Shown here in pieces: positions 4,896 through 11,744 of a stretch of DNA of 20,550 nucleotides. The notes under the pieces were generated by a model. That model did no database searches, had not been told where the DNA came from, and worked only from the letters and a program-made list of their open reading frames with translations. Made by a program: the position numbers and the translations under genes. Source of the stretch: a virus; IMG/VR virus record IMGVR_UViG_3300006853_000065, positions 1 through 20,550 of that record. One strand, written 5' to 3'. Position 1 is the stretch's first letter, and each line of letters starts with the position of its first letter.

Positions 4896-7012
4896 TAGGT
4901 AACGATCCGATCGGGTGTCGGAGGGTACTCGATTGGATGATCGTTAATCTCGCCACCCACAGTCTCGAACAGCCGTGCCCAACACTTAATCCAAGACCGG
5001 GTTTGCCCCTCAACCATATCGTTAGGAAAGGCCGGCCGCATCGTTGTTAACGTACTATCGTAGTGTAAGCCAACCTCCGCAGTCTGCGAAGCAGGCTCTA
5101 GCAATTGCACTTCACCGTTGGTTACGAAGCTAGTGCCACGATAGCTTCCATCGGTTATGACGTCAACTTCCATTCCTTCGAGATGGTTCAAATTGCCTAG
5201 TACCGTTGTCGGAGTGCCCGCCAAGTCGTAGACACGGGCGCTATCCGTTTGACATGAAGTCCAAGGCCGGGCGGCCAACTCCTCAGCATCTTCCTCGAAC
5301 AATTCAATATAGCGTTTGGCTTCGCCATTGACAATGCGCTTTACAACGACCCAAACATGGTCATGCTCGGAATGAGCGCCCGATCCGGGAATACAAGCTA
5401 CTGACTCAAATGTTCCATTAGTGACTAAACGAGTAAAACCGATCACCTTTTCATGGTGAAAGAAAGTCAAAACAATCAATGTACCATCGTTGCGCACGAA
5501 GTAGATGCGCGGATGCATACGCTTTTGATAGGCAATTGGGCCTGGGCGTACGCCACCTTCGGTTATATGCTCGGATGCCCCTGTTAGCTCCAAAGCATCG
5601 TAGCCATCCTCTTCCAAGCTAAAAGCAATGGAGAAAATCTCGCGCCCGCCCCTCTCGACAAAGATAACGCGACGTGAGATAACCGTAGGTTGGATGTGCA
5701 TGGAGCCATGCTTAGTAATCGCAGTGACCAATGGGATAACGTCGCCACCCAAAGGCTCGTCTGACTTACCGCCAGTAACGCGATGTTCGGAACCGCCCGT
5801 CCCGACAAACATATCAATGTTGTCAGCGATCCATTGAATGATATTCAGGCCGCGCGTTGCCATCGTATACTCGATAGCTTTGTCGGCTTCGAGGCCAATC
5901 GCGTAGTTGTCGAAGTCATCGCTTGCAGATAGCCAGAACGTCGTCTTTTGGGTAGGCGTAGCCGCTTGCGCCAGCCGGCCTTGGTAGAATTCGCCTGTAT
6001 GTGGATAGCCAGCAGTAGCGGACCACGATGGAATCTCCAATGACCAAGCCCCGGCCGGCGCTGCCGATGGGTTAGCACTATCGGTTCCAGTCATCACAGA
6101 TAGCAACTCTGAAGTTGCATGTGTAGGATCAGTAACAGTTTTGATTTTGAGCAAGCCGGCGTAAACCTTGATAAATTTGCCAATATCGGCCGCCCGGAAC
6201 GCACTAACACTCGCAACTAGGTTTACCAACGAGCCTACTGGCTCTTTCTTATCAGGATCAAGCGTAGCTTGTGGCGATCCTCGTAGAAACCACGATCCAG
6301 ATGCGATAGCATCAGTATTAGGAAAATCATCGAGAATATCGGCGCGAACATCGTCGTTTGGATCGCCGGTGTCGCCCGCGCTCGCGCCTAGGCTTGTGAT
6401 AATGGCACGGCTACTACCGTAGATGACGAGCCGGCCTACGTCACCCGCGATGAATACCGCCGCACTAGCGTGAAAGATAACAGTTGTACCAGTAACGGCG
6501 CCTGGCGTTAGCGTTGCACCTCCGGATATATCAGTATCAGCTTCGAATGAGGGAGGGGCGTTGTAACGGATTGGAAGTAAGCTCCAATTGGTATCGGAAA
6601 TTCGTGAAAGCTTGTGTTGAGGGATATTTTCATTGAATAACCACATCACATCGACCGATTGCGTCGTATGAATTTCGCGAAGCAGGGCTTCGTTATAGGG
6701 TGTTGCTAGCTCGACACCTGCAATTCGTGAATTACCTTTGTAGATGCGCGCATAGTTGTGACCCATTTCGAGAATGTAAGCATCATCCATGCTCGCTTCA
6801 AACGGAATTATGATTGTATCGCGAGTATGGTCCTTGACTTCGCCGACAAAGCGAAGGCCGGGCCTTCGAGTGACACCGCCCTGTCGCAACATTAGGAAAT
6901 TTTCGGCAACTTTCATCATTTCGAAGTAGCCAGCTAGATCCGGGCGCCCCTCGATTAATGGCGAAGCCTCGCCTTTCGAGAAATTTGTCAAAATTGGCTT
7001 ACGCGAAGGCAT
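4895..7012 (-). CDS. Tail tubular protein B / nozzle-like structural protein
   Basis: A 705-aa protein. The N-terminus carries a signature I know from podovirus tail-tube/stabilisation proteins: FSKGEASPLIEGRPDLAGYF at residues 11-30, then ENFLMLRQGGVTRRPGLRFV at 37-56. The rest is beta-rich with many Gly/Thr/Asp turns, consistent with a propeller-like nozzle at the tip of a short tail, as in T7 gp12. It follows the tail tubular A-like gene with no gap (TAG then ATG), the usual gp11-gp12 pairing. Length is close to that of T7 gp12 (about 790 aa). It has no signal peptide or enzyme motif. Family-level assignment is good; exact equivalence to gp12 is inferred. Confidence 0.8.
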   Translation of the reverse strand: MPSRKPILTNFSKGEASPLIEGRPDLAGYFEMMKVAENFLMLRQGGVTRRPGLRFVGEVKDHTRDTIIIPFEASMDDAYILEMGHNYARIYKGNSRIAGVELATPYNEALLREIHTTQSVDVMWLFNENIPQHKLSRISDTNWSLLPIRYNAPPSFEADTDISGGATLTPGAVTGTTVIFHASAAVFIAGDVGRLVIYGSSRAIITSLGASAGDTGDPNDDVRADILDDFPNTDAIASGSWFLRGSPQATLDPDKKEPVGSLVNLVASVSAFRAADIGKFIKVYAGLLKIKTVTDPTHATSELLSVMTGTDSANPSAAPAGAWSLEIPSWSATAGYPHTGEFYQGRLAQAATPTQKTTFWLSASDDFDNYAIGLEADKAIEYTMATRGLNIIQWIADNIDMFVGTGGSEHRVTGGKSDEPLGGDVIPLVTAITKHGSMHIQPTVISRRVIFVERGGREIFSIAFSLEEDGYDALELTGASEHITEGGVRPGPIAYQKRMHPRIYFVRNDGTLIVLTFFHHEKVIGFTRLVTNGTFESVACIPGSGAHSEHDHVWVVVKRIVNGEAKRYIELFEEDAEELAARPWTSCQTDSARVYDLAGTPTTVLGNLNHLEGMEVDVITDGSYRGTSFVTNGEVQLLEPASQTAEVGLHYDSTLTTMRPAFPNDMVEGQTRSWIKCWARLFETVGGEINDHPIEYPPTPDRIVT

Positions 7013-7618
7013 CTATTCCCGGCCCCAGATCAAATCATCTGCTTGGTACGCAATCTGTGTACCCTCTTGCCCGTCGAGTGCCAGTGCCAATGGCAGTAAA
7101 GCGCCATAACCATCTTGGAACAACGCCCGCGATAAGCCAGGATCTTTACGAATCGGCATAGCCAGCTTGCTAGCCAACCACGATACAGCTGCTTGATAGA
7201 ACAACCCGTCCCATTCGTCCGGGTTTGTGCTATCGCGTGTATACACCAGGCGAACCTCACCATCGTTGGTGTAGATATTGTCGCCCTCGACCTTGTAGTA
7301 CCCGGTCCAAGCCATCCAACCGAACTGAGTCATCTGAAGATTGACAGCGTTGCCATTGTAATCGCGAATAGCGACGAGGTCGCGGGGTAGTTTGTAAGCA
7401 TAGGAAAATTCAAAGATAGGTACGGTAACGTTTTGTACCAATACAGCACGAGTTTCAGCGAATTTCCAACGATGCATTCGCAACATTCCCCGACGGAGGG
7501 GCGGCCAAAACCGTTTGCACCAGTTTGCGTTTATCGTACCTTGGTCGATTCCCGTAATCGACTCACTAACGCCCACCATTCCGAGTGCATCATTAAGGAA
7601 ATCGGTTTCGCTAGCCAT
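7013..7618 (-). CDS. Tail tubular protein A-like (gp11-type head-tail adaptor)
   Basis: A 201-aa protein that matches the tail tubular A pattern: an N-terminal FLNDALGMVGV segment, then a helix with PPLRRGMLRMHRWKFAETR at about 39-57, then the strand signature YAYKLPRDLVAIRDYNGN at about 73-90, and a C-terminal helix with QAAVSWLASKLAMPI. Length is near T7 gp11 (about 196 aa). It forms the dodecameric ring joining the portal to the tail nozzle. The ATG at 7618 overlaps the upstream TAA as TAATG. The next gene, the nozzle-like protein, starts directly after its stop. Confidence 0.85.
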   Translation of the reverse strand: MASETDFLNDALGMVGVSESITGIDQGTINANWCKRFWPPLRRGMLRMHRWKFAETRAVLVQNVTVPIFEFSYAYKLPRDLVAIRDYNGNAVNLQMTQFGWMAWTGYYKVEGDNIYTNDGEVRLVYTRDSTNPDEWDGLFYQAAVSWLASKLAMPIRKDPGLSRALFQDGYGALLPLALALDGQEGTQIAYQADDLIWGRE

Positions 7619-8370
7619 TAATGTGGAAATCCTCCGATTGCCCAGCCAACACCAGGAGAGCCAACACTTCCAGCCACGCCCTCTCGTATAGCTACAGCTA
7701 TTGCTATAGTATCATCCGCTGCACTAGTAGTCCAGCCGTAGCTAACACTTCCACTACTAGCGATCGAAGTACGCCTAATCAAGCTTATCAACTCTGCACA
7801 ACAAGGGTTACTTTCCAGTGGATCAGTGTAACCAGCTATAGGCGCAACGTTTCCGAGAGTCACATCGCCGAAAATCATGACTGCTGCTATAAACGTATCG
7901 ACTGTAGTTGTCAGTGTACCACCAGGATCGTCTAATGAATCACTGCTAATAGTATCGGTATCCTCCACTGAAGTATCCGTACTGGCAGTGACGGTGATCG
8001 AACTGCAACGTTTTGTCGACGCCCCGCTTACCGTTACGGATACGGTTTGAGCGCCCGTCGGTACACTAGCACCCAAGAAATAACCATACACACTACCCGT
8101 CTCACCGCTACTTTTTATAACAGGCGATCCGGAAACAATCGTAGTAGCAACACCACCATATGTGACGTTGGAACCCGCTCCGATTTCGTTCGCAGTACTA
8201 CTGAACACAGCACAGAGAATAAGGACACCGCGAGGGGTGCCAGATGGTGTATGCGTCCAAGAAAGGTTTCCTGTACCAGCCGCTCCGATGTTGACTACAT
8301 CAAAAGCGATTGCCGCATAACAAGTGCTCGGCAACAGTGTAAGTAGGAGTGCTGCTAGTAGTCGCTTCAT
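7618..8370 (-). CDS. Secreted beta-sandwich protein of unknown function (Sec signal peptide)
   Basis: I place the start at the ATG at 8370 (250 aa), which overlaps the upstream TGA as ATGA. A start 24 bases upstream would add eight residues before the signal peptide. Residues 1-19 (MKRLLAALLLTLLPSTCYA) are a textbook signal peptide with predicted cleavage after CYA. The mature part is Ser/Thr/Val/Gly-rich with alternating strands, including VTYGGVATTIVSG and a GYFLGASVPTGAQTVSVTVSG stretch, and contains several cysteines. Proteins of this look occur in phages and in bacterial surface or extracellular proteins; I know no function. A signal peptide on a gene inside the structural operon is unusual. 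It is either a virion appendage exported by accident of ancestry, or a secreted factor. Confidence 0.7.
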   Translation of the reverse strand: MKRLLAALLLTLLPSTCYAAIAFDVVNIGAAGTGNLSWTHTPSGTPRGVLILCAVFSSTANEIGAGSNVTYGGVATTIVSGSPVIKSSGETGSVYGYFLGASVPTGAQTVSVTVSGASTKRCSSITVTASTDTSVEDTDTISSDSLDDPGGTLTTTVDTFIAAVMIFGDVTLGNVAPIAGYTDPLESNPCCAELISLIRRTSIASSGSVSYGWTTSAADDTIAIAVAIREGVAGSVGSPGVGWAIGGFPH

Positions 8371-10370
8371 CGCCGCAATCTCCCGCGATGCCAAGGTGGA
8401 CCGGGTAGTTCGGGTGGATTAGCAATAAATTCGTAAGTACCAAGCTCCCAACCCGGCCCTTGCGGTCGGACAGTACCATCGTAATCGATTGGTGAGGATG
8501 GAAATGTTCCACTATTTAACTGCGTAGCTTGACTCTCTCCAGCATTTATTGAGCTTACGCTATTAATTGTCAAATGAAAATCTCGCCCGGCCTGGTTGAC
8601 GAAGTTTGGATTATAACCACCAATTTGCCAAGAATTTGTACTACCCGTAACATCTGTACTCGTACCAAAATCGTTGAATTGGAAAGTCGTATTTCCATAA
8701 CTAATGTTGTTACGTAGACGTGTTCCGGAAGGCACCGTTTCTCCAGATACGCCTATAACGATACCGCCTTGAGGATTGTCAACAACAGTGTTATTGTAAA
8801 TACCTACATTAGTTGGCGCACGCCGGAGCTTGAGCGCCCCTCCACCCGCAAAACCAGTACCCCCACAACCCCAAGCTATGTTATTGTAAATTAAGATATC
8901 AGCTCCAGAAATTCCAGCTGATGGTTGAACTAGAATACCTCGCCCGTTCGTGTTATGCATCAAATTTGAACGAACTACGCTACGATCTGTACTCTCTATT
9001 GCGTCATCACTAAAAAGATGAGCTAAATAGCCCGTACCGAGGTAGGCTTCGCAGCCTTCTATGAGATTGTCTGCCCCAGCCGGATATACACAATGCGAAG
9101 CGCCGGGTGACGCAGTGTAGGTATAATCGTGACCAACACAACGTATAAACTCGTGATGATGCCCGCCTGATACAACAAAAATGCCATTTCCTAAGTTGTT
9201 GTGATGGCCGGTACACCGATCGAATCGATTGTGATGAGCAGCCGTAGACAAGTTACCAGCAGTAGATACGGTGCCAACATAAGCACCCTTGGCTCCACTC
9301 AAAAAATCGAAAGTCAGTTGCCGAATTATGATATATTGTCGAGCGCTACCAGTATGATGAAAAGCTGGATCAGTAGGTGGTTTGATTACCGGAATGTGTC
9401 CAGAATCAGCACCCACAATCGTAGCAACCGCAAACGATGTACTTGCCGGAAATTGATGAGTAACGTTAAAGCTTTCGGCATAATCGCCCGTCCGGCCAAG
9501 TACCACATCACCATCGTTAGCAACCATCTGCGTACGCGCTTTTTCGTAGGTACGCCAAGGCAGCGCACTAGAGCCATTGCCCGTAGTATCACTTCCGGTT
9601 GTCGCGACATAGAATGTGTCAGCTACGGCACGGGCGGGTGGTACGAAAGGTATCGGAATCCAACCATCGAAATTGGAGATCCAAGCAGCGTAGCCAAGAC
9701 CCGCGCCCAGCCCCCAACGTAGGAAAGTTCTACGATCAAGCCACGCCCGCTTCTCTATTGCACAACGTATACAACCGTGCCATACTAGATGAGTAGTTGC
9801 TGCCAGTGTATCTAGGGTATAATCTTCGAAGCCTGATTGGTCACACTTCTTGCAGCGCCATTCGATCATCTGATCGATTTCGCGCAATGTAATTTCATGT
9901 AGATGTGTAGCTTGCGGAATATATTTAGTCTTTGTACTAAGGAAACGTTGCTTTATTTCTTTCCATGTAACCGATTCTTCTCCGACTGGTACAGTCGTGT
10001 GATGCTCGCATGGGGCGATTGTGTGTTCGTAAAGCTCAGTAATAGCGTGTACACGAAGGGCGGGCGACACCCGTCCCCTAGCTGCTTGTGTCACATATTG
10101 ACGCCAGGGCAAGGACACTTCTCCACGACGAACGATACCGCTTCCTGGCTCTGGTTCCAGCAGTCGTTCCGTGTTAAAACGCCGCCAACGCTGCAATGGA
10201 GTCATGCGAGCTAGATCCCACAAAGTAGGGTCGTTGTGCCGCAGTTGTCGCTCACTCACATAGGGAACTGGCTTAGAAATGATTGTGGGTGCCAGCTTGC
10301 TAATCTGCTCGCGTGTCAACGCTGGTGCTAGCGCCCGGCCTACTAATCTGCGTGTCTCTAATGTGTACAT
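8367..10370 (-). CDS. Right-handed beta-helix protein (tail-spike or polysaccharide-binding type) with internal Tat-like signal
   Basis: A 667-aa protein in four parts. Residues 1-170 are helical and charged with no recognised domain. Residues 173-203 hold CKKC and CIRC pairs, a likely zinc ribbon. Residues 212-250 look like a Tat signal: DRRTFLRWG, a hydrophobic Gly/Ala run, and ARAVA before a new domain. From about 251, DTFYVATTGSD followed by PWRTYEKA is the standard opening of secreted right-handed beta-helix proteins, and many N-N-x-I/V-rich coils follow (for example ILIYNNIAWG, VGIYNNTVVD). It ends with DYDGTVRPQGPGWELGTYEF (629-648), typical of choice-of-anchor-Q proteins. Such folds bind or cut polysaccharides; no catalytic residues could be assigned. 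It is a good candidate for a receptor-binding or depolymerase spike, though the Tat-like signal suggests export instead. Confidence 0.75.
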   Translation of the reverse strand: MYTLETRRLVGRALAPALTREQISKLAPTIISKPVPYVSERQLRHNDPTLWDLARMTPLQRWRRFNTERLLEPEPGSGIVRRGEVSLPWRQYVTQAARGRVSPALRVHAITELYEHTIAPCEHHTTVPVGEESVTWKEIKQRFLSTKTKYIPQATHLHEITLREIDQMIEWRCKKCDQSGFEDYTLDTLAATTHLVWHGCIRCAIEKRAWLDRRTFLRWGLGAGLGYAAWISNFDGWIPIPFVPPARAVADTFYVATTGSDTTGNGSSALPWRTYEKARTQMVANDGDVVLGRTGDYAESFNVTHQFPASTSFAVATIVGADSGHIPVIKPPTDPAFHHTGSARQYIIIRQLTFDFLSGAKGAYVGTVSTAGNLSTAAHHNRFDRCTGHHNNLGNGIFVVSGGHHHEFIRCVGHDYTYTASPGASHCVYPAGADNLIEGCEAYLGTGYLAHLFSDDAIESTDRSVVRSNLMHNTNGRGILVQPSAGISGADILIYNNIAWGCGGTGFAGGGALKLRRAPTNVGIYNNTVVDNPQGGIVIGVSGETVPSGTRLRNNISYGNTTFQFNDFGTSTDVTGSTNSWQIGGYNPNFVNQAGRDFHLTINSVSSINAGESQATQLNSGTFPSSPIDYDGTVRPQGPGWELGTYEFIANPPELPGPPWHRGRLRR

Positions 10371-10376
10371 TGATTC

Positions 10377-10973
10377 TCAGTCGTTAGTCGTGAAATTGCA
10401 GATTCCTTCTGCTGCTGCCATAGCTGTCGTACTATTGTCAGCACTAGTAGTTACGAAGCGAACCGATAGTGCAGTTGCGAAACTTCCACCATCGACGCTA
10501 GGCATGTACGAATTTCCTGCGTTGGCCGGCAGGTAGAGAGTTACGATTGGTGAACTAGCTGACGTAGGAGAAGCTACATTGTACAAATGAGCCCAGGCCG
10601 GCGTGCTAGCATTGCTATTAGTACAGCTAGCATGATAAAGAATCTTGGCGCCCGTCCCAACCTGAGTAGCATCTTGGTTAGCACCGCTAGCTGTCTTTAC
10701 TCGACGGAGTGTTTTGCCAACCTCACGAAGCGTTACAAACATGTTCCCTTGCAGGTCAATGTAACAGGGATTCTGGTTTGTGTTAGTAAGAGATGGCGCG
10801 CTAGATACCGCAACACACGGCAATACAGGCGTCTTGGCAGTTGCATTAGTAGAGTTATCCGCGCCTCCGATTAGAGGAGTGCCATTACCGTAATGAACAT
10901 TTACCGATTGGGCAACTACGCTAGTCGGAACTAGAAATAGTGCTAGTGTTAGTGCGAGAATCAGCTTTTTCAT
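10377..10973 (-). CDS. Exported protein with Sec signal peptide and four cysteines, unknown function
   Basis: A 198-aa protein. Residues 1-21 (MKKLILALTLALFLVPTSVVA) are a clear signal peptide, cleaved before QSVNV. The mature part has four cysteines (53, 70, 117, 192), an even number compatible with two disulfides in the periplasm, and a beta-rich C-terminal half (IVTLYLPANAGNSY, then ALSVRFVTTSADNSTT) resembling small jelly-roll-like phage structural proteins. The ATG has a strong GGGGAGG ribosome site about 10 bases upstream, so expression may be high. It lies between a beta-rich structural-type gene and the beta-helix gene. I do not recognise a family. Confidence 0.65.
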   Translation of the reverse strand: MKKLILALTLALFLVPTSVVAQSVNVHYGNGTPLIGGADNSTNATAKTPVLPCVAVSSAPSLTNTNQNPCYIDLQGNMFVTLREVGKTLRRVKTASGANQDATQVGTGAKILYHASCTNSNASTPAWAHLYNVASPTSASSPIVTLYLPANAGNSYMPSVDGGSFATALSVRFVTTSADNSTTAMAAAEGICNFTTND

Positions 10974-11432: not shown

Positions 11433-11744
11433 CTAGTCCTTTGCGATCCGTAGGGAGCAGCCCTTGCCGATCCATTGTGATATGTTTATGTCATCGGCCG
11501 GGCACCCATGCAAGCACATGCCCATTGCTTCGAGAACGCCGTCCGGCCGTAGCATCATAATTGACATGCCCGGATAGCGTATCTCCCATGCCTTGCAATA
11601 GGTGGCGCCCGGTATTCCGATAACGTCGTCGATTCGAAGGTTGTGGCAATGCAACTGCATTCCGTTTTTCACAGCCGTACAGCATTGCCCACAACGATTG
11701 CACTCACCTTCGAGACGAAGGACTGGAAGACTACGTTGTGCCAT
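11433..11744 (-). CDS. Cysteine-cluster protein of YkgJ type (metal or Fe-S binding)
   Basis: A 103-aa protein with nine cysteines. The N-terminal cluster GECNRCGQCCTA (C15-x2-C18-x2-C21-C22) is the hallmark of YkgJ-type zinc/iron-chelating proteins, and further cysteines at 33, 50, 77, 81 and 96 could complete the metal site. Histidines at 32 and 34 flank one of them. The family has no firmly established function; some members are annotated as Fe-S cluster proteins. It overlaps the upstream 64-aa gene by 14 bases. Its presence in a head/tail operon is unexpected. It may mature or modify a virion protein, or be a cargo gene. Confidence 0.65.
   Translation of the reverse strand: MAQRSLPVLRLEGECNRCGQCCTAVKNGMQLHCHNLRIDDVIGIPGATYCKAWEIRYPGMSIMMLRPDGVLEAMGMCLHGCPADDINISQWIGKGCSLRIAKD

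Follow-up and report, generated by a model that had tools for sequence, protein, structure and literature searches.

Can a phage protein carry in its middle an export signal for the twin-arginine translocation (Tat) pathway of its host? This question is raised by a gene for a 667-amino-acid (667-aa) protein (8367..10370, minus strand) in the viral record IMGVR_UViG_3300006853_000065 of IMG/VR. The 20.5-kb record (20,550 nucleotides; referred to in full as the window) carries podovirus genes on its minus strand, recognised by Pfam and PHROG matches (capsid, PF19821; portal, PF12236; tail protein, phrog_376; internal virion protein, phrog_418; all on the minus strand), and the 667-aa gene is located between the capsid and tail genes. 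Its product consists of an N-terminal domain (N-domain, residues 1-211), a Tat-like segment (residues 212-250), a right-handed beta-helix (residues about 251-655) and a proline-rich basic tail (residues 656-667). The sequence evidence gives an even chance, in our judgement, to the reading that the middle segment is an internal Tat-type export signal, functional or recently so, on a protein belonging to a podovirus exported-protein cassette; that the segment descends from an export signal is probable.

The Tat-like segment and the domain in front of it

The segment (9621..9737, minus strand) reads DRRTFLRWGLGAGLGYAAWISNFDGWIPIPFVPPARAVA and is followed by DTFYVATTGSD and the right-handed beta-helix. 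The first-pass annotation had described residues 212-250 as DRRTFLRWG, a Gly/Ala run and PARAVA in front of a beta-helix, and this description was borne out, with the right coordinates. The twin arginines (RR) are residues 213-214, and DRRTFLR (residues 212-218) matches the SRRxFLK consensus save for Asp instead of Ser and Arg instead of Lys. The following Gly/Ala-rich hydrophobic region (h-region) is free of Asp, Glu, Lys and Arg from W219 to F234 and gives way to helix breakers and a C-terminal region (c-region) of the signal with Arg247 and an AxA site, PARAVA (residues 245-250), where cleavage is predicted between AVA and D. Basic residues in the c-region are known to serve avoidance of the general secretory (Sec) pathway, and helix breakers after the h-region are likewise a described feature (PMC7317946).

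When the window is searched in all six frames, the Pfam family TAT_signal aligns at 9696-9740 (17.6 bits, E = 1.5e-4); measured against all of Pfam, the match has 13.7 bits (E = 0.062), and the best TAT_signal score among 32 related viral records is 12.4 bits. Furthermore, the best 13-residue Kyte-Doolittle hydropathy (KD) of the h-region is about 0.99, versus 2.0-2.7 for the Sec-type signals found in the neighbours and the relatives. The h-region is therefore far below Sec-type hydrophobicity, as expected for a Tat signal and not for a Sec signal or a stable anchor.

The segment is not N-terminal, 211 residues preceding it. Several observations concern the gene model. An independent contig (L002) has the 667-aa gene with 100% the same sequence, and the frame is thus not an assembly artefact. 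For residues 1-211, the annotated frame is favoured by codon statistics in every block, and only a 6-bp gap separates the gene start from the upstream neighbour. The in-frame starts near the signal, Met168 and TTG162, are without Shine-Dalgarno pairing (0.1 and 0.4 kcal/mol, respectively), and better-paired in-frame starts (87 and 101) are far upstream of it. The codon signal, the 6-bp gap and the unpaired internal starts together imply that the signal is truly internal, barring an unusual start.

The N-domain itself (9738..10370, minus strand) contains no hydrophobic segment (maximal 19-residue KD 0.71). It possesses two CxxC motifs (residues 173-176 and 200-203), which could possibly form a zinc ribbon. 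Searches of phages, plasmids, genome_contigs and viral_contigs with the whole protein and with the N-domain returned only the same virus, the contigs sharing the N-domain being 99.97-100% identical. No trustworthy match was found for residues 1-211 in Pfam, PHROG or PDB, and thus no known phage tether and no recognisable virion-binding domain; weak PHROG matches (E = 0.06-0.1) were taken as noise, and an apparent internal repeat was at chance level (124 of 300 shuffles). AlphaFold2 (AF2) models calculated from the single sequence, without relatives, had a predicted local distance difference test score (pLDDT) of 31 and 40 and were uninformative.

Exported relatives of the beta-helix and signal-bearing neighbours

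The beta-helix domain (8406..9620, minus strand) is of a secreted type, with a FYVATTGSD start and a choice-of-anchor-Q-like end; Beta_helix (PF13229) spans residues 361-507 (30.3 bits, cut-off 25.9, E = 3.8e-7). Related phages were gathered via tail-protein and capsid alignments, and relatives of the helix via a three-member helix alignment. Six viral relatives (L021, L063, L066, L067, L069, L071) have a hydrophobic N-terminal Sec-type signal directly before the YYVATTGSD start. Longer virion-like N-termini precede the helix in others (L068, L070, L072/L074, L076, L077, L078), and in L036 and L065 the helix start has neither. In all six signal-bearing relatives, Ala stands three residues ahead of YYV (position -3), where cleavage by signal peptidase is expected. 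Among the relatives without a signal only L036 has Ala at this position, and the virion-tethered ones do not have it. Like the exported group, the 667-aa protein carries Ala at -3, with a further Ala at -5, and its PARAVA is in register with the sites of these relatives. This register is evidence independent of the RR motif. Some phage structural regions do encode exported-type helix proteins, given that L063 is a phage with terminase and portal (PHROG matches) and that a major head protein is encoded in L067.

Both neighbours of the 667-aa gene encode Sec-type signals as well. The upstream 198-aa neighbour (10377..10973, minus strand) has the signal MKKLILALTLALFLVPTSVVA, with predicted cleavage before Q, and a strong Shine-Dalgarno site; the downstream 250-aa neighbour (7618..8370, minus strand) has the signal MKRLLAALLLTLLPSTCYA, with predicted cleavage before A, and a good ribosome site. 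The start of the latter is coupled to the 667-aa stop codon as an ATGA overlap. The GC content at third codon positions (GC3) is 0.40 in the upstream, 0.39 in the 667-aa and 0.375 in the downstream gene, versus 0.446-0.68 in the other genes listed. The segment is thus Tat-like in sequence and position, as the first-pass annotation had held: it matches TAT_signal, it occupies the place of the Sec-type signals of the exported relatives, and its gene has signal-bearing neighbours.

Proposed export route and competing explanations

If the segment is an internal Tat signal, the 667-aa protein would be a member of a three-gene exported-protein cassette between the capsid and tail genes. While residues 1-211 would remain cytoplasmic, as a soluble domain that possibly binds zinc, the middle segment would take the folded beta-helix through the inner membrane of the host: RR would be bound by TatC, and the weakly hydrophobic run would enter the membrane as a hairpin. 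Signal peptidase would then cut after Ala250, and a glycan-binding or glycan-cleaving helix would be freed. Tat use, cleavage, topology and enzyme activity of the protein are what we infer here; as to its likely role, our guess is that it acts on polysaccharide of the envelope or outside the cell, for example to help progeny escape or to prevent reinfection. A broader proposal, which we hold a little less firmly than the internal signal itself, is that some podoviruses export fibre- and spike-like proteins of their structural loci via both Sec and Tat of the host. The 667-aa protein would then be one phage case of a Tat signal in mid-protein, the product of a single gene being divided into a domain that remains cytoplasmic and possibly binds zinc and an exported helix that acts on glycans.

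Such an arrangement has partial precedents. An internal Tat signal works in the Rieske protein Sco2149, and low hydrophobicity of the internal Tat signal is needed for release from Sec in actinobacterial Rieske proteins (PMC5449189). In some other cases, Tat handles the C-terminal domain of a protein that is already in the membrane with its N-terminal part (PMC13186574). The Sco2149-type Rieske protein resembles the 667-aa protein in having the signal inside the protein, low hydrophobicity and RR before the segment (PMC5449189). They differ in that the last helix of the Rieske protein stays as an anchor, whereas an AxA site follows the segment in the 667-aa protein. The 211-aa soluble domain ahead of the signal goes beyond both the Rieske and the membrane-anchored Tat examples.

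Several points speak against an internal Tat signal. Both TAT_signal scores are below the Pfam curated cut-off of 22.7 bits, the hydrophobicity of the h-region is low even by Tat standards (weaker than in TorA, 1.5, or SufI, 1.75), and the distance of about 37 residues between RR and the cleavage site is long. The part preceding the signal in Sco2149 is two Sec-inserted transmembrane helices, whereas here it is a soluble domain. Moreover, L036, a relative at the same locus, is without an export signal, no second independent N-domain or internal Tat signal was present in the relatives searched, and genome_contigs, scanned with an alignment of the capsid, gave no prophage and hence no host in which Tat could be looked for.

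Because the h-region is weak and the profile score sub-threshold, the segment could instead be a vestigial signal serving as the linker of a virion spike, a reading which we rank second and regard as rather unlikely. Residues 1-211 would then be a lineage-specific tether, and the helix would have been captured together with its signal, which is now a vestigial linker or hinge. The weak h-region fits such decay, several viral helix relatives stand behind virion-like N-termini, and the gene is located in the interval from the capsid to the tail genes. Residues 1-60 have a GC3 of 0.53, like that of core phage genes, and the later parts a lower one, which is compatible with a fusion. Tailspikes with an N-terminal head-binding domain have the same order of N-domain and beta-helix and the same kind of virion-gene locus; the 667-aa protein differs from them in having an export-signal-like linker and no recognised head-binding or C-terminal trimerisation domain. 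In fact, neither a trimerisation nor a chaperone domain was recognised at its C-terminus, and residues 1-211 are unlike any tether in PHROGs, Pfam or PDB. The intactness of RR, FL, the uncharged stretch and AxA and the Sec-type signals on both neighbours also count against this reading.

The segment could also be an internal Sec signal-anchor of a type II membrane protein, with the N-domain inside, the helix outside and RR contributing positive-inside charge only. RRTFLR ahead of a hydrophobic run fits this topology, and the neighbours have Sec-type signals, but no 19-residue window of the 667-aa protein reaches a KD of 1.2, and a stable anchor or an ordinary Sec signal requires more than that; Arg247 in the c-region is, moreover, a feature of Sec avoidance. 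We consider this explanation improbable.

Equally improbable is a chance mimic, i.e., an ordinary helix plus linker in front of the beta-helix, with a sequence that fits the Tat rules by accident. The 667-aa protein is Arg-rich, and looser RR patterns are found inside other proteins of the group (DRRSFIDH in a 213-aa protein of L006 and L024-L026; RRDVLRAG in L004), so the RR motif alone would not suffice. However, the E value of 1.5e-4 in the window has nothing comparable in the 32 related records, and the register shared with the exported relatives does not depend on the RR match. Furthermore, among 20,000 shuffles of the 667-aa protein, RRxFL occurred in 187, RR.[FL][LMIV] with an uncharged stretch in 24, and the full pattern with AxA added in only 3 (note that the pattern was picked after the sequence had been seen).

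Finally, two products, the full-length protein and a shorter exported one made from an internal start with the signal near its N-terminus, are very improbable. In favour of them, a start at Met168 would leave 45 residues before RR, a length that long Tat n-regions can just about reach; against them, the internal starts are unpaired or far upstream, as described above.

Known beta-helix proteins and signal-bearing proteins of the structural locus

The six exported relatives share with the 667-aa protein the helix start and the signal-peptidase register, and several of them are encoded in phage structural loci; they differ in that their signal is N-terminal and of the Sec type and that they have no N-domain. 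The secreted bacterial alginate lyase AlyF-OU02 (7bz0, 5z9t) gives a weak sequence match to residues 463-544 (E = 0.0019). It is a beta-helix polysaccharide enzyme, to which the likeness is one of sequence, and it differs in having no phage context and no N-domain. WceF of Pantoea stewartii is described as a glycan enzyme with a tailspike-like fold encoded by a bacterial gene (PMC7949094), whereas the gene for the 667-aa protein belongs to a phage.

The literature searched, the coverage of which was incomplete, describes no phage protein whose Tat signal is internal. Internal Tat signals and exported beta-helices as such are already known. The first-pass annotation had regarded each of its readings of the segment as new in a podovirus spike locus, which is only partly right, because Sec-type signals recur at this locus in related podoviruses. 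If the proposed route is true, a phage uses the export of folded proteins with a mid-protein signal, and the 667-aa protein offers a test of how Tat handles a soluble N-terminal extension.

A lead of possibly greater importance is the wider occurrence of signal-bearing structural-locus proteins in this podovirus group. In 18 dereplicated related contigs, 15 of the 142 genes in the capsid-to-tail interval encode Sec-like signals, compared with 3 of the 190 genes outside it (p = 4e-4; the signals were counted with a crude home-made score and the genes as mechanical open reading frames). The sequences hint that podoviruses with such genes may export fibre-like proteins from their host. Phage structural-locus proteins starting with export signals, one of them with a canonical tail-fibre N-domain, form a recurrent class that is undescribed in the literature searched, and they raise the question whether signal-bearing fibres are secreted decoys, enzymes, or proteins added to virions outside the cytoplasm.

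The variable, signal-enriched interval can be found in the window, L008, L021, L027, L033, L035, L038, L044, L048, among others, and its Sec-like signals are on fibre-like, FnIII-like and beta-helix proteins. In L033 (L033:9149-10675), the complete Sec-type signal MRKLLLTLFLCLFPAFAGA stands ahead of the canonical tail-fibre N-domain; the PHROG tail models begin at residue 20 of this protein (phrog_1640, E = 1e-30), the alignment with known tail fibres also runs from residue 20 on, and the best ribosome site, with a strong Shine-Dalgarno sequence, is at the Met of the signal. L063 encodes a signal-bearing tail-fibre-like protein near a signal-bearing beta-helix protein (L063:4038-5288 and 5950-8964), and the viral contigs L069 (L069:889-5948) and L071 (L071:1212-6213) possess stretches of genes whose products bear signals of the Sec or lipoprotein type, beta-helix proteins included. 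Upstream of the capsid gene, L035 (L035:2610-2939) and L034 (L034:3118-3447) encode a 109-aa protein starting with MNRRHFLQGCISTVALLQAG, an N-terminal Tat- or lipoprotein-like signal. After the capsid genes, a small conserved Cys-rich protein (CNRCGQCC ... GKGCSLRI) is encoded in the window (11433-11744) as well as in L008 (L008:8010-8324) and L017 (L017:1281-1622); it is possibly metal-binding.
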